Origin: Flavobacterium sp. 9
Lineage (GTDB): Bacteria; Bacteroidota; Bacteroidia; Flavobacteriales; Flavobacteriaceae
Length of the DNA stretch: 64,000 nucleotides
Direction of reading: 5' to 3'
NCBI RefSeq assembly: GCF_002754195.1
Contig: NZ_PEEU01000001.1
Coordinates: forward strand, 5,084,001-5,148,000
Shown: positions 18,993-29,989 of the stretch, in pieces
How the letters are laid out: each line of letters starts with the position of its first letter
Position numbering within the stretch: position 1 is the stretch's first letter
The notes under the pieces: generated by a model
Told to the model about the DNA's origin: nothing
Seen by the model: the letters and a program-made list of their open reading frames with translations, nothing else
The model's database searches: none
Position numbers and translations under genes: made by a program

Positions 18993-19673
18993 CTATTCAG
19001 CTAGTTTTTTTAATGCTTTTATGTTTTTAAGGATTATTTTTTTACCTAGTAATTCAATCAATTCCAGTTTATTAAAGTCAGATAACAATCGAATGCAGCT
19101 TTCTGTTGCGGTTCCAATCATTCCGGCTAATTCTTCTCTGCTAAGTTGTACTTTTAGAGTTTTATCTGTATTTTCTCCAAATGCATCATACAAGTACAGC
19201 AAAGTTTCTGCTAATCGTTGTTTTACGGTTTTTTGAACTAACGCAATTTTTTCGTTTTCAGATTCTTTCAAATCTTCACAGACAGATTGCATCAGGTTCA
19301 TTGAGAATTGATTGTTAGTATTGAAGAAATGTATGATTTCGCTTTTCGGAATAAAGCAAACTTCCATATCAGCAACAGCTTTTGCAGTCAAATTTGCAGG
19401 CTCATTACTAATCATAGAGCGTTGTCCTAAAAGTTCACCTGATTTTACCAGCTTAATAATCTGATCTTTTCCGTTGGCGCTTAATTTAGAAAGTTTTCCA
19501 ACACCATCTTTTATACAAAAAACACCATTTGTTAATTCGCCTTCTTCAAAAATAGCTTCGCCTTTTTTAATGTTGTAAGTAGATTTGCTATTAGCCAACT
19601 TTATAACCTCGTCTTTATTCAGTGCTTTAAGAGAAGATAACTGTCTTACGATACATTGGTCACATTTATTCAT
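18993..19673 (-). CDS. Crp/Fnr-family transcriptional regulator of the cbb3 locus
   Basis: The 226-residue protein has a cyclic-nucleotide-binding-like beta-roll (about 28-125, with KKGEAIFEEGELTNGVFCIKDG), a dimerisation helix and a C-terminal winged helix (VQLSREELAGMIGTATESCIRLLSDF; the recognition helix holds GTATESCIRLL, similar to the E..SR of Fnr/Crp). The N-terminus MNKCDQCIVR contains a CxxC, but not the four-cysteine set of an E. coli-type 4Fe-4S Fnr, so oxygen sensing by a cluster is not proven. It is divergent from ccoI and is the best candidate to bind the three palindromes ahead of ccoI, ccoS and hemN. Confidence 0.88.
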   Translation of the reverse strand: MNKCDQCIVRQLSSLKALNKDEVIKLANSKSTYNIKKGEAIFEEGELTNGVFCIKDGVGKLSKLSANGKDQIIKLVKSGELLGQRSMISNEPANLTAKAVADMEVCFIPKSEIIHFFNTNNQFSMNLMQSVCEDLKESENEKIALVQKTVKQRLAETLLYLYDAFGENTDKTLKVQLSREELAGMIGTATESCIRLLSDFNKLELIELLGKKIILKNIKALKKLAE

Positions 19674-19690
19674 AGCAAAAATATTTAATG

Positions 19691-19698
19691 CAAAATTA
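19691..19698 (-). promoter_or_regulatory. -7 box of the Crp/Fnr gene
   Basis: CAAAATTA on the plus strand reads TAATTTTG on the minus strand and gives a leader of about 10 bases to the ATG at 19673. A second match at 19676-19683 is too close to the start codon to be used. Confidence 0.45.
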
Positions 19699-19805
19699 AC
19701 TATTATTAGCTTTCGAAGGTGTTATTATTACTGAAAAATCATATAAAAAGTCTTATGTTGTTATTTACCAGATTTATTTGGTACATTAGAATTCGATTTA
19801 AATGC

Positions 19806-19853
19806 AATATGATAAATGTCATATTTAAATTCGCTTCTTATTTGGAATATTTG
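19806..19853 (+). promoter_or_regulatory. Fnr-like operator and degenerate -7 box of ccoI
   Basis: AATATGA and TCATATT (19806-19812, 19819-19825) flank TAAATG; the core 14-mer ATGATAAATGTCAT at 19809-19822 differs by one base from the hemN operator. An AATATTTG (19846-19853, one mismatch to TAnnTTTG) lies 37.5 bases from the operator centre, within one base of the spacing at ccoS and hemN. It also lies between the regulator gene and ccoI, so it could serve autoregulation. Confidence 0.65.
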
Positions 19854-19874
19854 TTACACTAAAAAAAACAAATT

Positions 19875-22268
19875 ATGAGTGAGCAGGGTTGCTTTCATTG
19901 TGGACTTACCATTCCTAAAAATGAAGAAATCAATTTTGATGAAAAAAAGTTTTGTTGCAACGGTTGTAAAACAGTTTACGAAATTTTTAGTCTTCATGAT
20001 TTAACCTGTTATTATGATTTTGAAAAATCGCCGGGAGCTACTCCTCAAGATATACAAGGTAAATATGATTTCCTGGATAATGAAGCTATTTTATCAAAAG
20101 TATTAGAATTCCAAGAAGGAAACACCGCAATAGTTTCTTTAAATATTCCTCATATTCATTGTAGTTCTTGTATTTGGATTCTTGAAAATCTAAATCGAAT
20201 TCAATCCGGAATAAGCACTTCTCAGGTTAATTTTCCTGAAAAAAGAGTTCGAATTACTTTCAATTCAGATCTTGTTTCCCTTAAGGATATTGTTAATTTG
20301 CTTAGCTCAATCGGTTATGAACCTTATATAAGTTTAGAAAATTACGAGACAGGAAAAAATAGTGTTGATCGTAGTTTAACCTACAAACTTGGTGTTGCCT
20401 TTTTTTGTTTTGGAAACATTATGTTGCTTTCTTTTCCGGAATACTTTGAAATCAAAGAGTTCTGGCTTGATAATTATAAACCTTTTTTTAGAATTTTAAT
20501 CTTTGTTTTGGCATTGCCAAGCTTTTTATATTCAGCAAGCGGTTATTATGTTTCTGCTTATAAAAGTATAAAATCGAGAATGTTAAACATCGATATTCCA
20601 ATTGCTTTAGGAATTATTGTAATGTTTGTGCGAAGTACGTTTGACATTGTTATGAATTATGGATCCGGTTTTTTTGACAGTTTAACAGGATTGGTATTTT
20701 TCATGTTACTCGGAAAAATGTTTCAAATAAAGACTTATAGTTTTTTAAGTTTCGAAAGAGATTTTAAATCTTATTTTCCAATTGCTGTTACTAGAATTAA
20801 TTCAGATACTTCTGAAGAAAGCGTACCTATTTATGATATTTTAAAAGGTAATCGTCTACTAATAAGAAATCAGGAATTAATTCCAGTTGACGGTATTTTA
20901 ATAAGTGAAAGTACCGAAATTGATTATAGTTTTGTTACAGGTGAAGCGGTTCCGATAACAAAAAAATCTGGAGACAAGGTATTTGCTGGCGGAAAACAAA
21001 TAGGTAAAGTTGTAGAGATGGAAGTTTTACATTCTGTTTCGCAAAGCTATCTGACGCAATTATGGAGCAATGAAATTTTTCAGAAAAAGGTATTTCAAAA
21101 ACACAAAACCATTACAGATGCAATTAGTCGTTATTTCACACCTATATTATTATTAATTGCTTTTGGAGGATTTGGGTATTGGATATTTATTGATGCCAAT
21201 ACCGCTTTCAATGTTTTTACAGCAGTTTTAATTGTAGCTTGTCCTTGTGCATTGGCTCTTACAGCACCGTTTACTTTTGGAAATATTCTTCGAATAATGG
21301 GTAAGCAGAAAATGTACCTTAAAAATGCTTTAGTAATTGAACAATTAGCAAGAGTTGATACGATAGTTTTTGATAAAACCGGAACAATTACAACCAACAA
21401 AAAATCAAATATTCAATATGAAGGTGATAAATTGAGTGAAGAAGATTTTATACTTATTAAAAATGTTCTTCGCGGCTCAAATCATCCTTTAAGCCGAATG
21501 TTATATGATTTTTTACCCGAATCAAAAAGGCTTGCAATAGATGATTTTCAGGAGATAACAGGAAGAGGAATTCAAGCTTTTACAGAAAATAAATTAATTA
21601 AAATTGGTTCTGCAGAGTTTGTAGATAGTCCAGTTTCGGATCTTTCAGAAATTGAAAAAACAGGCCTGCATATTAGGATCAATGATACTTATTATGGGAA
21701 ATTCACATTCCAGAATCAATATCGAGAAGGCTTAGAAAAACTATTTCTCACATTGAGTAAAGACTATCAAATAAAAGTACTTTCGGGAGATAATGATGGA
21801 GAACGTTCTAATTTGGAAGCGATTTTGCCAAAAAATACAGAATTGATTTTTAATCAAAAACCAGAACAGAAACTGGAGTTTATCAAAAAACTACAAGAAA
21901 GTGGTCAAAATGTGATGATGGTTGGAGACGGTTTAAATGATGCCGGAGCATTAGCGCAGAGTAATGTTGGGATCTCTATTTCTGAAAATGTGAATGTGTT
22001 TTCTCCTGCTTGTGATGCGATTTTAGCAGCAAGTGAATTTTCGCGACTGGATTATTTTTTAAGATTATCGCAAAAATCAATTACAATAATAAAGATGAGT
22101 TTTGTCTTATCATTACTTTATAATATTGTAGGACTTTCCTTTGCTATTACTGGCAATCTACTTCCTTTAGTTGCGGCGATTATCATGCCTTTAAGTACTA
22201 TTACGATAGTAAGTTTTGTGACTTTTATGTCTAACTATTTCAGTGCTAGTAATTTAAAACGATTATAA
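19875..22268 (+). CDS. ccoI: Heavy-metal P1B-type ATPase, CcoI/FixI type
   Basis: A copper-transporting P1B ATPase of 797 residues. Order: an N-terminal cysteine-rich metal-binding segment (Cys6, Cys9, Cys27, Cys28, Cys31), a heavy-metal-associated domain with CSSC (96-99), two N-terminal membrane helices and more, the actuator TGEA, the intramembrane CPC motif (456-458), the phosphorylation site DKTGT with Asp500, the SNHPLSR HP motif and GDGLNDAGAL. CcoI-type pumps deliver copper for the CuB site of cbb3 oxidase rather than for resistance, which fits the location upstream of ccoS and ccoN. Confidence 0.93.
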   Translation: MSEQGCFHCGLTIPKNEEINFDEKKFCCNGCKTVYEIFSLHDLTCYYDFEKSPGATPQDIQGKYDFLDNEAILSKVLEFQEGNTAIVSLNIPHIHCSSCIWILENLNRIQSGISTSQVNFPEKRVRITFNSDLVSLKDIVNLLSSIGYEPYISLENYETGKNSVDRSLTYKLGVAFFCFGNIMLLSFPEYFEIKEFWLDNYKPFFRILIFVLALPSFLYSASGYYVSAYKSIKSRMLNIDIPIALGIIVMFVRSTFDIVMNYGSGFFDSLTGLVFFMLLGKMFQIKTYSFLSFERDFKSYFPIAVTRINSDTSEESVPIYDILKGNRLLIRNQELIPVDGILISESTEIDYSFVTGEAVPITKKSGDKVFAGGKQIGKVVEMEVLHSVSQSYLTQLWSNEIFQKKVFQKHKTITDAISRYFTPILLLIAFGGFGYWIFIDANTAFNVFTAVLIVACPCALALTAPFTFGNILRIMGKQKMYLKNALVIEQLARVDTIVFDKTGTITTNKKSNIQYEGDKLSEEDFILIKNVLRGSNHPLSRMLYDFLPESKRLAIDDFQEITGRGIQAFTENKLIKIGSAEFVDSPVSDLSEIEKTGLHIRINDTYYGKFTFQNQYREGLEKLFLTLSKDYQIKVLSGDNDGERSNLEAILPKNTELIFNQKPEQKLEFIKKLQESGQNVMMVGDGLNDAGALAQSNVGISISENVNVFSPACDAILAASEFSRLDYFLRLSQKSITIIKMSFVLSLLYNIVGLSFAITGNLLPLVAAIIMPLSTITIVSFVTFMSNYFSASNLKRL

Positions 22269-22314
22269 ATAATTCAATGTTATTTTTAGTTAAATTTAAC
22301 TTATCTCCTTATAG

Positions 22315-22359
22315 TATGATAATTATCATATTTTACCCGCCTCTAACGTATTAATTTTG
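22315..22359 (+). promoter_or_regulatory. Fnr-like operator and -7 box of ccoS-ccoNOQP
   Basis: A perfect 16-bp palindrome, TATGATAATTATCATA (22315-22330), is followed by an exact TAATTTTG (22352-22359). The operator centre lies 36.5 bases before the last base of the box, so about -43 relative to the predicted start, near a class II activator position. No -33 TTG is present. Confidence 0.75.
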
Positions 22360-22377
22360 TTAACATAAATTTATGGT

Positions 22378-22569
22378 ATGAGTGTTATTTATCTATTAAT
22401 TTCAGTAAGTATTTTCGTCGCAATTGGGTTTTTTATTGCTTTTATTGTGGCTGTTAAATCCGGACAATATGATGACGATTATACTCCTTCAGTCAGAATG
22501 CTTTTTGACGACGAAACCAAAATTACCCCACAAAATAATAATTCACCAACCGAAGAAAAACAAGTATAA
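22378..22569 (+). CDS. ccoS: cbb3 oxidase assembly protein CcoS
   Basis: A 63-residue protein with one N-terminal membrane helix (about 4-27) followed by the CcoS signature SGQYDDDYTPSVRMLFDDE. CcoS is needed to insert heme b and copper into CcoN. It lies 2 bases before ccoNO and directly after the palindromic operator, so it begins the structural-gene transcription unit. Confidence 0.93.
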   Translation: MSVIYLLISVSIFVAIGFFIAFIVAVKSGQYDDDYTPSVRMLFDDETKITPQNNNSPTEEKQV

Positions 22570-22571
22570 TT

Positions 22572-24758
22572 ATGGAAATGGAACAGTTTTACTACGACAA
22601 CAAAATTGTAAAAAAATTCATTTATGCCACTATCCTTTTTGGAGTAGTAGGTATGTTAGTGGGGCTAACCTTAGCGGTTATGTACCTTTTTCCCAACATA
22701 ACAGATGGGATTTCATGGCTTAGTTACGGTCGTTTAAGACCATTACATACCAATGCAGTTATTTTTGCCTTTGTCGGAAATGCGTTTTTTGCCGGTATGT
22801 ATTATTCGCTACAGCGCTTGTTAAAAGCCAGAATGTTCAGTGATTTTTTAAGTAACTTACATTTTTGGGGTTGGCAGCTTATTATTGTAGCGGCAGCTAT
22901 AACATTACCATTAGGTTATACTTCATCAAAAGAATATGCCGAATTAGAATGGCCAATTGATATTGCGATTGCGCTTATTTGGGTTGTAATGGGAATCAAT
23001 ATGATTGGTACGATGTTACGTCGTAGAGAGCGTCATTTATATGTTGCAATCTGGTTCTATCTTGCAACATTTGTAACAGTTGCTGTTTTGCATATTTTCA
23101 ATAATATTGAGCTTCCGGTTTCAGCTTTAAAAAGTTATTCTGTTTATGCGGGAGTTCAGGATGCTTTGGTACAATGGTGGTACGGTCATAATGCGGTTGC
23201 ATTTTTCTTAACGACACCATTTTTAGGATTAATGTATTACTTCATCCCTAAAGTAGCTAATCGTCCTATTTACTCGTATCGTTTATCAATTATTCACTTT
23301 TGGTCTTTGATATTTATTTATATCTGGGCGGGACCACACCATCTATTATACTCAGCTTTACCAAACTGGGCTCAGAATTTAGGAGTTGCATTTTCAGTAA
23401 TGTTAATTGCTCCTTCTTGGGGAGGAATGATCAACGGATTATTGACATTAAGAGGTGCTTGGGACAAGGTTCGTGAAGAACCAGTTTTGAAATTCTTTGT
23501 AGTAGCAATTACAGGTTACGGAATGGCGACTTTTGAAGGTCCTATGCTTTCTTTAAAAAATGTAAATGCGATAGCGCATTACACAGATTGGATTATTGCA
23601 CACGTTCACGTAGGAGCATTAGCATGGAATGGATTTATGTCATTTGGTATCATTTACTGGTTGATTCCCCGAATGACGAAAAGCACATTATTCTCTAAGA
23701 AGTTAGCCAATTTCCATTTCTGGATTGGGACTTTAGGAATTATTTTATACGCTTTACCAATGTATGTAGCTGGTTTTCAACAAGCATCAATGTGGAAACA
23801 ATTTAATCCAGACGGGACATTAACGTATGGTAATTTCCTTGAGACTGTTACAGCTATTATGCCATTATATTGGATGAGAGCAATTGGAGGTAGTTTGTAT
23901 TTAATTGGTATGCTAACGCTGGTTTATAATATAATAATGACCGTTAGAGCTGGTCATACTATCGAAGATGAATTAGCTCAGGCTCCAGCTTTACAAAGAA
24001 TAAGCAGTAATAGATTAAGTGGAGAAAAATTCCATACCTGGTTAGAAAGAAAGCCAATTCAATTAACCATTTTGGCTACAATAGCTATTCTGATTGGTGG
24101 TATTATTCAAATCGTACCAACAATTATGGTTAAATCAAATATACCAACAATTTCTAGTGTTAAACCATATTCACCTTTAGAGCTTGAAGGTCGTGATCTA
24201 TATATCAGAGAAGGTTGTGTAGGTTGTCACTCACAGTCAGTTCGTCCTTTTAGAAGTGAAGTAGAACGTTATGGACCACAATCAAAAGCGGGAGAGTTTG
24301 TATATGATCATCCATTCCTTTGGGGATCAAAACGTACAGGTCCTGATTTGTTAAGAGTAGGAGGCAAGTATAATGATAACTGGCATTTTAATCACTTCTG
24401 GAATCCGCAAAGTATTTCTGCAGGTTCAATTATGCCGGGTTATAAGTGGTTGTTTGATAATGAGCCAATGGATATTTCCCTAACTCAAAAGAAAATGCAA
24501 GCCATGGTTACACTTGGAGTTCCTTATACAGAAGCAGAGGTTGCAAATGCACAAAAAACGTTAAGAACTCAGGCACTTGCAATAGAGAAAAGCTTAGAAA
24601 ACGATCCGGATTATGTAAAAAGTTACGAGGAGAGCAAGAAAAAAGCAGCTGCAAAAGGCGAAAAATTTGTTCCTATGAATGAAAGAGAAATCGTTGCGAT
24701 GATTGCTTATATACAAAGACTTGGAACTGATATAAAAGTAAAAGAGACATCTAAATAA
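22572..24758 (+). CDS. ccoNO: Fused cytochrome cbb3 oxidase subunits I and II (CcoNO)
   Basis: Catalytic oxidase subunit fused to the monoheme c subunit, 728 residues. The CcoN part (about 1-470) has the heme and CuB histidines in LHTNAV, WWYGHNAV, AGPHHLLYS and IAHVHVGALAW. The CcoO part begins with a membrane helix near 495 and holds one c-type heme site, CVGCH (549-553), followed by SVRPF, TGPDLLRVGGKY and GSIMPGYKW. In proteobacteria these are two genes; the fusion is common in Bacteroidota. It reduces oxygen to water with high affinity in the cytoplasmic membrane. Confidence 0.96.
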   Translation: MEMEQFYYDNKIVKKFIYATILFGVVGMLVGLTLAVMYLFPNITDGISWLSYGRLRPLHTNAVIFAFVGNAFFAGMYYSLQRLLKARMFSDFLSNLHFWGWQLIIVAAAITLPLGYTSSKEYAELEWPIDIAIALIWVVMGINMIGTMLRRRERHLYVAIWFYLATFVTVAVLHIFNNIELPVSALKSYSVYAGVQDALVQWWYGHNAVAFFLTTPFLGLMYYFIPKVANRPIYSYRLSIIHFWSLIFIYIWAGPHHLLYSALPNWAQNLGVAFSVMLIAPSWGGMINGLLTLRGAWDKVREEPVLKFFVVAITGYGMATFEGPMLSLKNVNAIAHYTDWIIAHVHVGALAWNGFMSFGIIYWLIPRMTKSTLFSKKLANFHFWIGTLGIILYALPMYVAGFQQASMWKQFNPDGTLTYGNFLETVTAIMPLYWMRAIGGSLYLIGMLTLVYNIIMTVRAGHTIEDELAQAPALQRISSNRLSGEKFHTWLERKPIQLTILATIAILIGGIIQIVPTIMVKSNIPTISSVKPYSPLELEGRDLYIREGCVGCHSQSVRPFRSEVERYGPQSKAGEFVYDHPFLWGSKRTGPDLLRVGGKYNDNWHFNHFWNPQSISAGSIMPGYKWLFDNEPMDISLTQKKMQAMVTLGVPYTEAEVANAQKTLRTQALAIEKSLENDPDYVKSYEESKKKAAAKGEKFVPMNEREIVAMIAYIQRLGTDIKVKETSK

Positions 24759-24765
24759 CAGCATT

Positions 24766-24960
24766 ATGTTTGAACAGATAAAACACAATATGGAGACTAT
24801 TTCGGGTATTGCCATTTACCCGATACTTTCTCTCTTGATATTTTTCTTCTTTTTTGTTGGCTTAGGCTTTTGGGTGTTCTCCTATAAAAAAGAAAAAATC
24901 CAGGAAATGAGTGAAATACCTTTGGATGAAGGATATGGTATAATTTCAAAAGATATTTAA
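24766..24960 (+). CDS. ccoQ: cbb3 oxidase subunit CcoQ
   Basis: A 64-residue protein with one membrane helix (about 17-40, rich in Phe and Leu) and a short charged tail (YKKEKIQEMSEIPLDEG). Size, topology and position between ccoNO (7 bases) and ccoP (1 base) identify it as CcoQ, which stabilises the oxidase complex. Sequence conservation in this subunit is weak, so the call rests mainly on context. Confidence 0.85.
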   Translation: MFEQIKHNMETISGIAIYPILSLLIFFFFFVGLGFWVFSYKKEKIQEMSEIPLDEGYGIISKDI

Positions 24961-24961
24961 T

Positions 24962-25900
24962 ATGAAAAAATTTTTCCCAGTATATGTAAGAGTACCGCTG
25001 ATTTTCTTCATCGTCTTTGGATTGATGGAATATTTTATAGATTCAGGCGATAAACCGGCTTTTATAAAATATCCAATGGTTTCTGTCTTTTTACTTGTCT
25101 TTTTATTTATACTGATAGCAATCGAGATTACATTAAGTGCTGTCAATCGTGTCATGTATCAATTGATGTCACCGGAAGAAAAGGCGAAATTGGAACATGA
25201 AAATAGTTTGAGCTTAACAGAAAGTACTTGGTATAAAGATTTAATGCTTAAGCTTACCCAAACACAGCCTATTGAAAAAGAAGGTGACTTGCTAATGGAT
25301 CATGATTATGATGGAATTAAAGAGTTAGACAATAATTTACCGCCATGGTGGGTATATTTATTTTATATCTGTATTGTTTTTGGAGTAATCTATGTAGCGC
25401 GTTATGAACTTTTTGGAGGAGACGATCAGGAAACAGAACTTAAAAAAGAAATGGCTCAGGCAAAAATAGATGTAGACGAATATCTTAAAACTGCTCCGGA
25501 TTTAATGGATGAAAAAACAGTTGTTTTACTTACCGATCCGGAAAATTTAGCAATTGGAAAAGAAATATTCACAACCAATTGTGCTGCTTGTCACCGTGCT
25601 GATGCTGGTGGGCAAATTGGACCAAACTTAACGGATGATCGTTGGATTCTAGGAGGAGGAATTAAAAATCTTTTTCATACTATAACAAATGGAGGTCGAG
25701 ATGGTAAAGGAATGATTGCCTGGAAAGGAACCTTAAAACCTAAGGAAATTCAAAAAGTAGCAAGTTACATTCTTTCCTTACAAGGAAGTAATCCAAAAGA
25801 CCCAAAAGAAGCAGAAGGAGAAGTTTGGGTAGATGATAGTGCTCCAGCAAAAGATACCACAGCAAGTACAGCAAAAGATAGTACTGAAGTTAAAAAATAA
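24962..25900 (+). CDS. ccoP: cbb3 oxidase subunit III CcoP, with one visible heme c site
   Basis: The membrane-anchored cytochrome c subunit has 312 residues: two N-terminal helices (about 10-27 and 38-60), a third at about 129-147 preceded by the CcoP_N motif DGIKELDNNLPPWW, then a cytochrome c domain with CAACH (207-211), GQIGPNLTDD and the axial methionine in KGMIAWKG. The C-terminal tail is acidic and low complexity. Classical CcoP has two CxxCH sites; only one is present here, so this chain would carry a single heme c. Confidence 0.92.
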   Translation: MKKFFPVYVRVPLIFFIVFGLMEYFIDSGDKPAFIKYPMVSVFLLVFLFILIAIEITLSAVNRVMYQLMSPEEKAKLEHENSLSLTESTWYKDLMLKLTQTQPIEKEGDLLMDHDYDGIKELDNNLPPWWVYLFYICIVFGVIYVARYELFGGDDQETELKKEMAQAKIDVDEYLKTAPDLMDEKTVVLLTDPENLAIGKEIFTTNCAACHRADAGGQIGPNLTDDRWILGGGIKNLFHTITNGGRDGKGMIAWKGTLKPKEIQKVASYILSLQGSNPKDPKEAEGEVWVDDSAPAKDTTASTAKDSTEVKK

Positions 25901-25912
25901 TTATAATAGATC

Positions 25913-27331
25913 ATGTCAAATTTACCAGACGAAGCTTTTAGAGATACCATCGGAACTATTGATGAAGGGGGTAATCGAAAATTTATTTTCCCTAAAAAAC
26001 CGTCTGGTAAATTCTATGAATACAGGAAAATAGTTAGTTATGTTTTGCTGGCTATTTTAGTTGCCAATCCGTTTATAAAAGTAAATGGAAACCAATTTAT
26101 GATGTTCAATGTTATGGAACGTCGATTTAATATTTTTGGATTTCCATTTTGGCCGCAGGATTTTTATCTCTTTGTAATTTCAATGCTTGTTGGAATTGTA
26201 TTTATTATCTTGTTTACAGTTGTATTTGGCAGAATTTTTTGCGGTTGGATTTGTCCACAAACTATTTTTCTTGAAATGGTTTTTCGCCGAATTGAATATT
26301 GGATTGATGGTGATCGCGGTGCTCAATTGCGATTATCAAGACAAGAATGGAACGCAGAAAAAATACGAAAGAGATCGATCAAATGGATCATTTTTTTCTT
26401 GATTTCATTTGGCATCGCCAATGTTTTTCTTGCTTATTTGGTAGGAAGTGATCAACTATTTTTGATGGTTAAGGAAGGACCAATTAAACAAGCAAGTAAT
26501 TTTATTGCCTTATTGATCTTTACCGGAGTTTTCTATTTTGTTTTTGTTTGGTTTCGTGAACAGGTTTGTATTATTGCTTGTCCATACGGAAGATTGCAAG
26601 GTGTACTTTTAGACGATAAATCGATTAATGTAGCCTACGATTTTGTACGAGGTGAAAAAGAAGTTGGGCGCGCAAAATTCAATAAAAAAGAAGATAGGAT
26701 TGCAACCGGAAAAGGTGATTGTATTGATTGTCATCAATGTGTACACGTTTGTCCAATGGGAATCGACATTAGAAACGGAACGCAATTAGAATGTACCAAT
26801 TGTACCGCTTGTATTGACGAATGCGATACAATTATGGAAAGTGTTGGTTTGCCTAAAGGACTTATTAGATATGCATCTGAAGATGAAATTGTAAAAAAAG
26901 CACCTTTCAAGTTTACTGCAAGAATGAAAGGCTACACGGCTGTTTTATTTATTTTGCTAAGTGTTTTTGTTGGAATGCTATTTTTAAGAACAGATGTTCA
27001 GGCGATTGTTTTACGTTTACCAGGGCAGTTATTTCAGCACAAAGGAGATAAAATTAGCAATGTATATACTTATAAGATTGTTAATAAGACAATGAAAGAT
27101 TATCACGACATTCATTTCGAATTAATTGACCAAAAAGGAACTATTAAAAATGTCGGAAATCAACATTTTAAAGTTTTAAAAGAAGGGATTTCGCAAGGAA
27201 CCTTATTTATAGAAATTGATCAGGCTCTTTTGGAAAGTGATAAAACCAAAGTTGAAATTGGAGTTTACAACGGCAAAGAGTTGATTGAAACTACCACAAC
27301 TAATTTTTTAGGACCAAGAAGTTTTAATTAA
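25913..27331 (+). CDS. ccoG: Cytochrome oxidase accessory protein CcoG (FixG/RdxA)
   Basis: An integral membrane iron-sulfur protein of 472 residues, needed for copper supply to cbb3 oxidase (a cupric reductase in characterised members). It has membrane helices near 38-58, 85-107 and 145-200, the CGWICPQT motif, and a ferredoxin-type region with CIDCHQCVHVCP and CTNCTACIDECD (about 267-300), then another helix and a C-terminal Ig-like FixG domain. It starts 12 bases after ccoP and belongs to the same unit. Confidence 0.95.
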   Translation: MSNLPDEAFRDTIGTIDEGGNRKFIFPKKPSGKFYEYRKIVSYVLLAILVANPFIKVNGNQFMMFNVMERRFNIFGFPFWPQDFYLFVISMLVGIVFIILFTVVFGRIFCGWICPQTIFLEMVFRRIEYWIDGDRGAQLRLSRQEWNAEKIRKRSIKWIIFFLISFGIANVFLAYLVGSDQLFLMVKEGPIKQASNFIALLIFTGVFYFVFVWFREQVCIIACPYGRLQGVLLDDKSINVAYDFVRGEKEVGRAKFNKKEDRIATGKGDCIDCHQCVHVCPMGIDIRNGTQLECTNCTACIDECDTIMESVGLPKGLIRYASEDEIVKKAPFKFTARMKGYTAVLFILLSVFVGMLFLRTDVQAIVLRLPGQLFQHKGDKISNVYTYKIVNKTMKDYHDIHFELIDQKGTIKNVGNQHFKVLKEGISQGTLFIEIDQALLESDKTKVEIGVYNGKELIETTTTNFLGPRSFN

Positions 27332-27343
27332 AAACATACTAAG

Positions 27344-27793
27344 ATGAAAATAAATTGGGGAACAGGAATTGTCATTGCATTCGCATTGTTTATGACTTTT
27401 ATTTTATATTTTGTTTTTGAAGTACAATCAAATAATAAATACGACAATGACTTAGTTGTCGAAGAATATTACAAACATGATTCTCATTTTCAGGACGAAA
27501 TGGCTCGAATTCAAAATGCTCATGATTTACAGCAAAAACCTTCGATTACTTATACTGAAAGCGGTGTAAAAATTGCTTTTCCTGCCACTTTTGAAAATGA
27601 TAAAGTAAAAGGAAATGTATTATTGTACAGACCTTCAAACAAGAAATTTGATTTTGATACCCAAATAGCTTTGACCAATTCAGCTTTGCTTATTCCGCAA
27701 AAGAAGTTGATTAAAGGACGTTGGGATGTTAATATGGAATGGGAATATAAAGGAACAAAATACCTTTCGAAAGAAGTGATTTATGTGAATTAA
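27344..27793 (+). CDS. FixH family protein
   Basis: A 149-residue protein with one N-terminal membrane anchor (about 5-26) and an extracytoplasmic domain ending in RWDVNMEWEYKGTKYL, the conserved FixH finish. FixH/CcoH is an assembly or stability partner of cbb3 oxidase. It follows ccoG by 12 bases, matching the fixGHI order. Confidence 0.9.
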   Translation: MKINWGTGIVIAFALFMTFILYFVFEVQSNNKYDNDLVVEEYYKHDSHFQDEMARIQNAHDLQQKPSITYTESGVKIAFPATFENDKVKGNVLLYRPSNKKFDFDTQIALTNSALLIPQKKLIKGRWDVNMEWEYKGTKYLSKEVIYVN

Positions 27794-27860
27794 ATAGATT
27801 CTTTTTAAACAGTTTTTTTAATCTAATTTAATCTGTGGCAAAAAGAAAAATATATAGCAA

Positions 27861-28562
27861 ATGTTGTACTCAACTTTTATATTAGGATTAATTAGTAGTT
27901 TGCACTGCATAGGAATGTGTGGTCCAATTGCTATGATGTTACCGGTAGATAGACAAAATGAAGCTAAGCGAGTAACTCAAATTATAACCTATCATTTAGG
28001 TCGTTTGACAGCTTATGCAACAATAGGTTTGATTTTTGGTTTATTAGGAAGAGGTTTTTTTCTGGCGGGGTTGCAACAAAAAATGTCCATTTTTATTGGT
28101 GTAGCAATGATAATCGTGGTTTTAATTCCGGAGAGAGTTTTTTCTAAGTATAATTTCTCAAAACCTATTTACAAAATCATCTCAAAAATAAAATCAAGCT
28201 TAGGAAATCAATTTAAAAAGAAAACTTATAAATCTCTTTTTACAATTGGATTATTAAATGGCTTTTTGCCTTGCGGAATGGTATATGTAGCTTTGTTTGG
28301 CGCTATTGCCATGCAAAGTGCCAGTTTTGGAGTTTTGTATATGATCTTATTCGGCTTGGGAACAATGCCGCTTATGACAATTGTAGTGTATGTCAATTCG
28401 TTGATAAAACTTCCTTTTAGAAATAAAATTCAAAAAGCAATTCCCTATGTTGCTGTTATTATTGGAGTACTATTCATCCTTAGAGGACTTGGTTTAGGAA
28501 TTCCTTATATTTCTCCATCAAATATGAGTTTGTTTGTACAAGGAACTCCTAATTGTCATTAA
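27861..28562 (+). CDS. SafE/TauE-like integral membrane protein of the cbb3 locus
   Basis: The 233-residue protein has about six membrane helices. It shows two Cys-containing helix motifs, SLHCIGMCGPIAM (residues about 13-25) and NGFLPCGMVYVAL, as in the sulfite exporter TauE/SafE-like proteins that accompany ccoI and fixH in many Bacteroidota and proteobacteria. Those cysteines suggest a metal- or redox-linked role such as copper handling during oxidase assembly. Its last 4 bases overlap the convergent hemN. Confidence 0.85.
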   Translation: MLYSTFILGLISSLHCIGMCGPIAMMLPVDRQNEAKRVTQIITYHLGRLTAYATIGLIFGLLGRGFFLAGLQQKMSIFIGVAMIIVVLIPERVFSKYNFSKPIYKIISKIKSSLGNQFKKKTYKSLFTIGLLNGFLPCGMVYVALFGAIAMQSASFGVLYMILFGLGTMPLMTIVVYVNSLIKLPFRNKIQKAIPYVAVIIGVLFILRGLGLGIPYISPSNMSLFVQGTPNCH

Positions 28563-29923
28563 ACCGTCATTGAAAACAAATTAGTTTCCGGTGATTTTCT
28601 TTTTAGATGCAAATCAAATGCCATACAAATATTTCGAACGAATGGTTTTCCAGCTTCTGTGATTTTAATCTTATTTTCTTCAATTATAATTAATTGATCT
28701 TTTTCTATTTCTTTTAAATCTAATAAAACACTTGGAAGTTCTTGGAAGTATAATGATTCATTAGACCAGGAAGTTTCAAATTCACAAGTTAAGTTCAAAA
28801 TATGTTTTCGAATAATTAAATCTTCATTATCTAAGATATGACCTTTAACAATTGGAAGTTTATCCCATTCTAATAACTGGTAATAATCTTCCAGATTTTT
28901 TGTGTTTTGAGCAAAACTATACCAACTGTCACTAATAGAAGAAACTCCTAAACCAATCATCAATTGAGTTTTTGAAGCACTATATCCCATAAAATTTCGA
29001 TGTAGCTTTTTGTTTTGTGTTGCTTTATGTAAACTATCAGATTCTAAAGCAAAATGGTCCATTCCAATTTCGTCATAGCCATTTTTAGAAAGTAGTTGTT
29101 TTCCAACTTCGTATAATTGTCTTTTTTCGGCATCTTTTGGAAGGTTTTCATCATTGAAACCACGTTGTCCGTTTCCTTTTATCCAAGGCACATGAGCATA
29201 ACTGTAAAATGCCAGACGATCTGGTTTAAGAGAATTTGTTTTTTCGATCGTATCGATAACATCTTCAATAGTTTGAAAAGGTAATCCAAATATAATATCG
29301 TGACCGATAGAAGTATAGCCAATTTCTTTTGCCCAAAAAGTCACTTTGGCAACATTATGAAAAGGTTGGATTCGGTGTATTGCTTTTTGTACTTTTTCGG
29401 AATAATCCTGAACACCAAAACTTACTCGGCGAAAGCCTAAATCGTATAGTTTTTTGAGTTGTTCGTAAGTGGTATTATTAGGATGACCTTCAAAACTGAA
29501 TTCATAGTTTTCGGCCTTATTGGCAAAACTGAAAATGCCATTTATAAGATGTTCTAAATTATTTTTTGAAAAAAAAGTTGGAGTTCCTCCGCCTAAATGT
29601 ATTTCTTTTATAATTGGCTTTTCGGGTAATAATTTACAATATAAGCTCCATTCTTTTAAAAGTGCTTTTATATAGGTTTCTTCTACAGAATGGTTTTTTG
29701 TAATTCGTTTATTGCAACCGCAAAAAGTACACATGCTTTCGCAGAATGGTAAATGAATATATAAACTTATTCCGCTTTGTGAATTGCTTTCTGTGAATGC
29801 TTTTTGAAAAGATTCTATCCATTTTTCTGTTGTAAAACAGGCTTCATTCCAATACGGAACCGTTGGATAACTCGTATATCTAGGACCTGGGACATTGTAT
29901 TTTTGGGTCAGTGAGATTTTCAT
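28559..29923 (-). CDS. hemN: Oxygen-independent coproporphyrinogen III oxidase
   Basis: Radical SAM enzyme that decarboxylates two propionates of coproporphyrinogen III without oxygen, in heme synthesis. The 454-residue protein has the HemN start VPGPRYTSYPTVPYW and the cluster motif CESMCTFCGC (Cys61, Cys65, Cys68), then the SAM-binding GGGTPTF and the HPNNTT segment. The full length marks it as genuine HemN rather than HemW. It has an Fnr-like operator in front, so heme for the oxidase would be made under the same low-oxygen control. Confidence 0.96.
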   Translation of the reverse strand: MKISLTQKYNVPGPRYTSYPTVPYWNEACFTTEKWIESFQKAFTESNSQSGISLYIHLPFCESMCTFCGCNKRITKNHSVEETYIKALLKEWSLYCKLLPEKPIIKEIHLGGGTPTFFSKNNLEHLINGIFSFANKAENYEFSFEGHPNNTTYEQLKKLYDLGFRRVSFGVQDYSEKVQKAIHRIQPFHNVAKVTFWAKEIGYTSIGHDIIFGLPFQTIEDVIDTIEKTNSLKPDRLAFYSYAHVPWIKGNGQRGFNDENLPKDAEKRQLYEVGKQLLSKNGYDEIGMDHFALESDSLHKATQNKKLHRNFMGYSASKTQLMIGLGVSSISDSWYSFAQNTKNLEDYYQLLEWDKLPIVKGHILDNEDLIIRKHILNLTCEFETSWSNESLYFQELPSVLLDLKEIEKDQLIIIEENKIKITEAGKPFVRNICMAFDLHLKRKSPETNLFSMTV

Positions 29924-29945
29924 AAAAGACGGATTTTGTGTCTTT

Positions 29946-29989
29946 CAAAATTAGAGTTTAACTTCAAGGGATAAAATGACAAATGTCAT
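29946..29989 (-). promoter_or_regulatory. Fnr-like operator and -7 box of hemN
   Basis: ATGACAAATGTCAT (29976-29989; arms ATGACA/TGTCAT) precedes TAATTTTG (plus-strand CAAAATTA at 29946-29953). The centre-to-box distance is 36.5 bases, identical to ccoS. No -33 TTG is present. The transcript would begin near 29939, 16 bases before the ATG at 29923. Confidence 0.75.

Follow-up and report, generated by a model that had tools for sequence, protein, structure and literature searches.

FNR-like operators at a fixed promoter spacing in the cbb3 oxidase and hemN locus of Flavobacterium sp. 9, and their probable regulator

Introduction

Which protein turns on the cbb3 oxidase genes of Flavobacterium sp. 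9, and through which promoter geometry, is the question raised by three similar palindromes preceding ccoI, ccoS and hemN in this genome. They are located in a stretch of 64,000 nucleotides (contig NZ_PEEU01000001.1, positions 5,084,001 to 5,148,000), here called the window, whose numbering is used throughout; a Crp/Fnr-type gene, divergent from ccoI, lies beside them (18993-19673, minus strand) and encodes a protein of 226 amino acids, named Fnr1. We consider the three sites to be operators of a low-oxygen activator of the FNR/FixK type, most likely Fnr1, with a probability of roughly 0.83. The sites, their fixed spacing, the conservation of this spacing, the shared targets and the association with the regulator are read in the sequences; from them we infer binding and activation by Fnr1 at the operators.

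In the proposed mechanism, an Fnr1 dimer would bind ATGAYnnnnRTCAT with its centre about 41.5 bases before the transcription start, and the bound dimer would recruit RNA polymerase to promoters that have a TAnnTTTG box and no TTG at -33; at low oxygen, the cbb3 oxidase, its assembly genes, hemN and other low-oxygen genes would thus be switched on together. In Bacteroidota, whose promoters are unlike those of E. coli, little has been mapped of how oxygen is sensed and how transcription is activated; a single spacing rule would make the low-oxygen regulon readable from sequence in many genomes, and would offer a model of class II activation at TAnnTTTG promoters that can be tested.

Operators and promoter boxes in the window

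The preliminary description of this DNA had reported three operators and their distances from the promoter boxes, and both hold. The operators are ATGATAAATGTCAT before ccoI (19809-19822), ATGATAATTATCAT before ccoS (22316-22329, within a 16-bp palindrome at 22315-22330) and ATGACAAATGTCAT before hemN (29976-29989). From the operator centre to the last base of the box there are 36.5 bases both at ccoS (TAATTTTG, 22352-22359, plus strand) and at hemN (TAATTTTG, 29946-29953, minus strand), while at ccoI the distance to the weak -7 box AATATTTG (19846-19853, plus strand) is 37.5 bases. The three boxes also lack, as described, a TTG at 17-23 bases on their 5' side; however, the -33 region is not blank, since the operator is directly followed by a conserved run of T (about -33 to -30), with 73-87% T per position at ccoI and ccoS in the relatives profiled below, and partly at hemN (30-85%). 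In the window, this run is represented by the ATTTT that abuts the ccoS operator (22330-22334, plus strand, about -34 to -30).

Sites of this kind could be chance palindromes in AT-rich DNA, as the window has a GC content of 32%. Indeed, in the whole genome (6,328,714 bases) five places match the exact 14-mer consensus, with 6 matches in all, whereas the reversed pattern has 2; the shuffle rate of the window, scaled to 6.33 Mb, gives a rough expectation of about 4. The 14-mer as such is therefore hardly enriched genome-wide, and its number was rejected as a proof of function. A random genome-wide rate had been named in the preliminary description as the finding that would speak against it; the count does come close to chance, but three of the five places fall within this single 10-kb locus, before cco and hemN genes. 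Within the window, 4 matches (3 places) to the exact consensus compare with a shuffle mean of 0.04, and none of 100 shuffles reaches 4; with up to 2 mismatches there are 28 matches against a mean of 14.9, and one shuffle of 100 is as high; finally, the operator core combined with a TAnnTTTG box at exactly 36.5 bases is found twice, against a mean of 0.00 (0 of 100). The signal is carried by location and spacing, not by abundance. Chance is a practically negligible explanation, given that a single spacing dominates, before the same genes and with controls near zero; the spacing histograms already contradict it.

The spacing rule across genomes

When the core TGAYNNNNRTCA followed by TAnnTTTG was searched in the same genome over 43 gaps, 36 pairs were obtained, 8 of which have the single gap equivalent to 36.5 bases. 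By reading of the matches, these eight belong to ccoS, hemN, a Usp-like gene, a NarK-type transporter (best model TIGR00886, under its cut-off), a putative YceI-like gene, two sites with the outer pair T..A and one site within a reading frame.

The same spacing emerges from 60 Flavobacteriaceae genomes, one per genus, where ATGAYNNNNRTCAT with variable gap gives 343 matches versus 78 for the reversed pattern. Of the 150 matches listed, the gap for 36.5, one out of 43, accounts for 88 and the gap for 37.5 for 8, while any other gap occurs at most 5 times. With the spacing fixed and the outer base left free, the matches are 475 versus 8 for the reversed pattern; both totals, 343 and 475, are sums from the genome tables, and the matches themselves were listed in part. 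In 18 more distant genomes, picked for having Fnr1, 31 of 70 matches are at the 36.5 gap; in the six genomes of another family (f2) the figures are 14 of 54 at 36.5 and 15 at 37.5. By these counts, the operator-to-box distance of 36.5 bases is a rule of the family, and the class II activator geometry previously proposed is supported by its recurrence both in the genome of origin and across the family.

Mapping of transcription starts in F. psychrophilum places the sigma-A box between -12 and -5 (PMC9723704). If this is valid here, the operator centre would lie at -41.5, as is classical for class II activators; the fixed spacing is observed, while the value of about -41.5 derives by analogy from the starts of another species.

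Some arrangements go beyond a single operator of the common type. In four ccoS promoters (L054, L057, L061, L069) there are sites for two dimers, at 58.5 and 36.5 bases from one box, so that the paired operators are 22 bp, two helix turns, apart; gap 44, equivalent to 58.5 bases from the box, is found in seven matches from G076, G185, G328 and G347. Sites ending in TCAC are also included among the fixed-spacing matches of the 60 genomes.

Promoters of ccoI, ccoS, hemN and fnr in relatives

Upstream regions were compared in 80 named loci retrieved with CcoNO, plus the window; regions shorter than 100 bases were dropped, as were hemN, ccoI or fnr matches below 40% identity. The operator core is present in 63 of 77 regions for ccoS, 49 of 61 for ccoI and 20 of 31 for hemN. 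In this profiling a box with an exact match was preferred, then the one closest to 36.5 in its spacing; for this reason the claim on spacing is based instead on the gap histograms and on the fixed-spacing counts given above.

Exact TAnnTTTG boxes at 36.5 bases number 42 for ccoS, 3 for ccoI and 20 for hemN, and boxes with one mismatch 13, 32 and 0, respectively. The first position of the box is T in 58 of 63 ccoS and in 20 of 20 hemN promoters profiled, and in 6 of 49 for ccoI. A weak box is thus the rule for ccoI among relatives, the missing letter being mostly the first T, and the ccoI promoter accordingly looks weak and activator-dependent by design.

The fnr gene itself has a TAATTTTG box, read from the sequence (19691-19698, minus strand), at 124.5 bases from the centre of the ccoI operator, and autoregulation through this operator was dropped because of that distance. 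In the 38 fnr upstream regions of relatives, inspected by eye, an operator is located 22.5-23.5 bases from the fnr TAnnTTTG box in 15 cases, 36.5 in 4 and 47.5 in 3; at 22.5-23.5 bases, repression of fnr is plausible in these relatives. Four fnr-ccoI intergenic regions (L016, L022, L024, L026) contain a single operator at 36.5 bases from the boxes on either side, whereas the distance to the fnr box is 22.5-23.5 bases in many Flavobacterium; a shared operator may activate in both directions, or activate ccoI and repress fnr. The interval in the window (19691-19815), with its distance of 124.5 bases, is unlike that of most relatives, and control of fnr by the shared operator may have been lost in this species.

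The predicted regulon

The first open reading frames after the 88 sites listed in the 60 genomes were assigned from their first 75 residues, and one example per family was checked by models. The targets comprise the cco operon (15), hemN (11), ccoI (1), small cytochromes c (10) and proteins of the Thioredoxin_9 type (7); Usp proteins (4), phosphate acetyltransferase, Pta (3), and small secreted Cys-rich proteins (3), the one tested being without a match in Pfam; copper nitrite reductase, nirK (2), the S30AE ribosome-hibernation family (2), Pyr_redox (2) and NadA (2); pyruvate formate lyase, a POR-type oxidoreductase and a NarK-type protein (1 each). The remaining 23 sites precede other genes or no reading frame, and some of them are expected by chance. 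Two further targets, which we take to be haemoglobin-like (L171) and YceI-like (L195), did not match any Pfam family at E 1e-5, so that Pfam did not confirm these names. On the whole, the target genes would fit low-oxygen respiration and fermentation. In F. psychrophilum under oxygen limitation, cbb3 is strongly increased and heme-synthesis enzymes also rise (PMC9723704).

Fnr1 and its cysteines

Fnr1 is a member of the Crp/Fnr superfamily, with a cNMP_binding domain (66.1 bits, cut-off 27.5) and a HTH_Crp_2 domain (58.9 bits, cut-off 27). The genome encodes 27 proteins with a cNMP domain, all of which were read, and the one beside ccoI is the sole one having an N-terminal CxxC. The preliminary description had noted this CxxC (Cys4 and Cys7) and the absence of the E. 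coli cysteine set; the motif is correct and the arrangement does differ, but four cysteines are conserved: all 38 aligned orthologues have Cys4, Cys7, Cys53 and Cys106, and likewise Glu191, Ile194 and Arg195 of the recognition helix, which reads TATESCIR in Fnr1.

On alignment with FNR structures, Cys4, Cys7 and Cys106 fall on three of the cluster cysteines. The E. coli ligands are, in the numbering that we assume, Cys20, Cys23, Cys29 and Cys122; the position of Cys29 corresponds to residue 13 of Fnr1, where a cysteine is found in none of the 38 orthologues. Cys53, aligned with an Ala in the FNR strand LYAIRSG, lies in the beta-roll and is likely to be a substitute fourth ligand. An iron-sulfur cluster held by Cys4, Cys7, Cys106 and probably Cys53, with oxygen acting on the cluster, is predicted on this basis; this would possibly add a new set of ligands to those of FNR clusters.

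Among 69 further sequences of the phylum (69 of 70 rows, a second match in L383 being left out), 45 have all four cysteines, although some of these possibly come from species already represented among the 38 orthologues; 7 combine CxxCx4C and Cys106 with Phe or Ile at position 53; all 6 sequences of family f2 lack the four cysteines and keep TATESAIR; 11 have other arrangements. In several of the 45 (among them L381, L383, L391 and L399-L402) an extra N-terminal cysteine occurs about 8-10 residues further on.

It is also conceivable that Fnr1 binds here without any iron-sulfur cluster, its four cysteines being a thiol or metal switch or a nitric oxide sensor, and this would agree with the lack of a cysteine at the Cys29 position in all orthologues, with the further N-terminal cysteines of some distant relatives and with nirK among the targets. 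We regard it as the less likely reading, because three cysteines align with cluster ligands and because the four were lost jointly in family f2, in all 6 of its sequences, which, being one lineage, count as one event; moreover, the CxxCx4C paralogues lack Cys53 in 7 of 7 cases, as expected if Cys53 is a substitute ligand. These paralogues (L404-L410) are a second Fnr-like protein of the relatives, with the helix TTEEQ or TTDEQ. In family f2 (L385-L390, 6 genomes), the loss of the four cysteines goes with a retained TATESAIR helix and with operators kept at 36.5 and 37.5 bases.

Ser212 of FNR, to which we ascribe a role in the recognition helix, corresponds to an Ile in Fnr1, and the outer base of the operators is A or C; a link between these two features is plausible. 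Two TTGACnnnnGTCAA sites of the same genome, at 312219 and 3289488 (L093, L109, L110), have the outer pair T..A at the 36.5 spacing and lie near small Crp-like genes whose products have ETLSR helices. They fit this link, but are two cases; the 36.5 geometry seems to be general, and the outer base perhaps distinguishes regulators.

Assignment of the regulator and exchange of the sensor

The divergent Crp/Fnr gene had been indicated as the likeliest regulator, and the genome comparison agrees with this: besides the unique CxxC among the 27 proteins, the sites nearly disappear where Fnr1 and a second type of protein are both absent. The latter, of about 350 amino acids, carries a receiver domain before the cNMP and HTH_Crp domains, and is called here receiver-Crp. 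Fnr1, counted as present from 200 bits, so that the shorter matches of G018 (143 bits) and G040 (141 bits) are taken as absences, is found in 38 of the 60 genomes and receiver-Crp in 25, with both in 14 and neither in 11; absences of receiver-Crp are not certain, since 34 candidates were scored in many genomes. The median number of exact-spacing sites per genome is 16 with both proteins, 6 with Fnr1 only, 9 with receiver-Crp only and 1 with neither (Mann-Whitney, any regulator versus neither, 1.4e-7, relatedness and genome size being uncorrected).

Several observations weigh against the assignment of the operators to Fnr1 as an oxygen sensor. Besides the near-chance number of the 14-mer, such sites are kept in genomes without Fnr1; family f2 retains operators although its Fnr has none of the four cysteines; in G023, where Fnr1 is present, no ATGAY-type site at the 36.5 gap is found among the 3 matches listed, and there are 2 core sites. 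Several of the genomes with neither protein are small (1.6-1.9 Mb), which may partly explain their few sites; the four larger than 2.1 Mb have 1, 1, 1 and 0. Finally, the number of cNMP-domain proteins in this genome leaves room for another reader, for example the cysteine-free L274 (198 amino acids, helix ETVIR), in which case the signal need not be oxygen: L274 shares E..IR with Fnr1, the ATGAT-type site ATGATTTTAGTCAT, at 37.5 bases from TACCTTTG, is about 350 bases from the L274 domain, and L274-type proteins also occur in genomes without Fnr1. Such a reader is nevertheless improbable, as many relatives encode Fnr1 next to ccoI and the presence of Fnr1 goes with the number of sites; conversely, L274 has no linkage to cco, and G037 and G050 have many sites and no L274-type protein among the matches listed.

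Fnr1 thus stays the preferred regulator in Flavobacterium sp. 9, while the idea that it is the sole reader of the operator everywhere was rejected, given the sites kept in Fnr1-less genomes. Eleven of the 60 genomes lack Fnr1 and have both receiver-Crp and operators, and each of the six Fnr1-less genomes that were read encodes at least one receiver-Crp protein with E..IR; in four of the six (G006, G024, G039 and G049) a small Crp-like protein poor in cysteine carries E..IR as well. The targets in Fnr1-less genomes are again cco, hemN, Usp and thioredoxin-like genes (G039), cytochrome c (G048, G049, G056), cytochrome c and S30AE (G024) and hemN (G050). The receiver-Crp fusion is thus the probable reader of these operators where Fnr1 is absent, and the regulator cannot be told from the operator by itself. 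In Flavobacterium sp. 9 a search at E 1e-60, with 34 of the 93 candidates scored, found no receiver-Crp protein, and there is none among the 27 cNMP-domain proteins.

In 12 receiver-Crp loci (L485-L496, all best matches of one search) a PAS-kinase-like reading frame is located 5' of the gene in 12 of 12, and a Usp gene 3' in 11; operators occur between the receiver-Crp gene and Usp in most of them, and the kinase of L493 begins, by reading, with a LOV-like stretch. One of the 12 kinases was examined: its PAS domain has FixL as best match (E 6e-12), with a His aligned with what we take to be the haem His of FixL. These loci resemble a FixL relay whose output domain is FixK-like.

Comparison with known systems

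The Fnr1 system would work like an FNR/FixK class II system. With FNR (PDB 5e44 and 5cvr, presumably the E. coli and Aliivibrio fischeri proteins) Fnr1 has in common the Crp/Fnr fold, the CxxC and Cys106 on three cluster ligands, the operator core TGAY..RTCA, the presumed centre at about -41.5, and cbb3-type and anaerobic targets. Conversely, it lacks a cysteine at the Cys29 position, has the additional invariant Cys53 in the beta-roll and an Ile instead of a Ser in the recognition helix, and would act on operators with A or C, not T, as outer base and on TAnnTTTG promoters. Of the E. coli cysteine set, Fnr1 matches 20, 23 and 122 (as Cys4, Cys7 and Cys106) and not 29; compared with the E. coli operator, which we take to be TTGATnnnnATCAA, the core is the same, but most of the operators profiled carry A or C as their outer base; the Fnr model PRK11161 is the best NCBIfam match, at 76.6 bits against a cut-off of 228. 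Owing to these three differences, Fnr1 is called an FNR-like variant.

FixK and FixK2 of rhizobia are likewise Crp/Fnr activators of cbb3 (fixNOQP) and of assembly genes; FixK2 has no cluster (PMC12937710), whereas in Fnr1 the CxxC and two more cysteines are invariant. Bacillus FNR is, similarly to what is predicted for Fnr1, an iron-sulfur Crp/Fnr protein with another ligand arrangement, but its cluster is C-terminal (PMC12937710), whereas the cysteines of Fnr1 are N-terminal and in the beta-roll. The receiver-Crp genomes resemble the FixL-FixJ relay in having the PAS kinase 5' of the response regulator; the output of FixJ is a helix-turn-helix domain, while here it is a Crp/Fnr domain, so that FixJ and FixK would be one protein.

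We rate as an even chance that Bacteroidota possess an undescribed FNR class, with a cluster held by two N-terminal cysteines, Cys53 and Cys106 and a class II regulon of rigid spacing, in which the sensor was exchanged among iron-sulfur Fnr, PAS (FixL-like) kinase with receiver-Crp, and Cys-free Fnr, while operators and geometry stayed fixed. Such a history would constitute a natural experiment on sensor change with retained operators. In the open-licence literature, with most subscription journals outside this scope, no paper was found that describes an Fnr operator in Flavobacteria or the control of cbb3 by receiver-Crp fusions. In work on an anammox microbiome, Flavobacteriales Crp/Fnr homologues are assigned to carbon sensing and four cysteines are taken as the mark of FNR (PMC8510549).

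Gene order of the locus

The gene order is fnr (minus strand), ccoI, ccoS, fused ccoNO, ccoQ-like, ccoP, ccoG, ccoH, a gene for a DsbD_2-type protein and hemN (minus strand). On the plus strand, ccoI (19875-22268) encodes a copper-type P-ATPase and ccoS (22378-22569) a protein of the FixS family; they are followed by ccoNO (22572-24758), for the fused subunits I and II of the cbb3 oxidase, the ccoQ-like gene (24766-24960; FixQ, under the Pfam cut-off), ccoP (24962-25900; FixP_N and cytochrome c domains), ccoG (25913-27331), ccoH (27344-27793; FixH family) and the gene for the DsbD_2-type membrane protein (27861-28562). The minus-strand hemN (28559-29923), for oxygen-independent coproporphyrinogen III oxidase, closes the locus.

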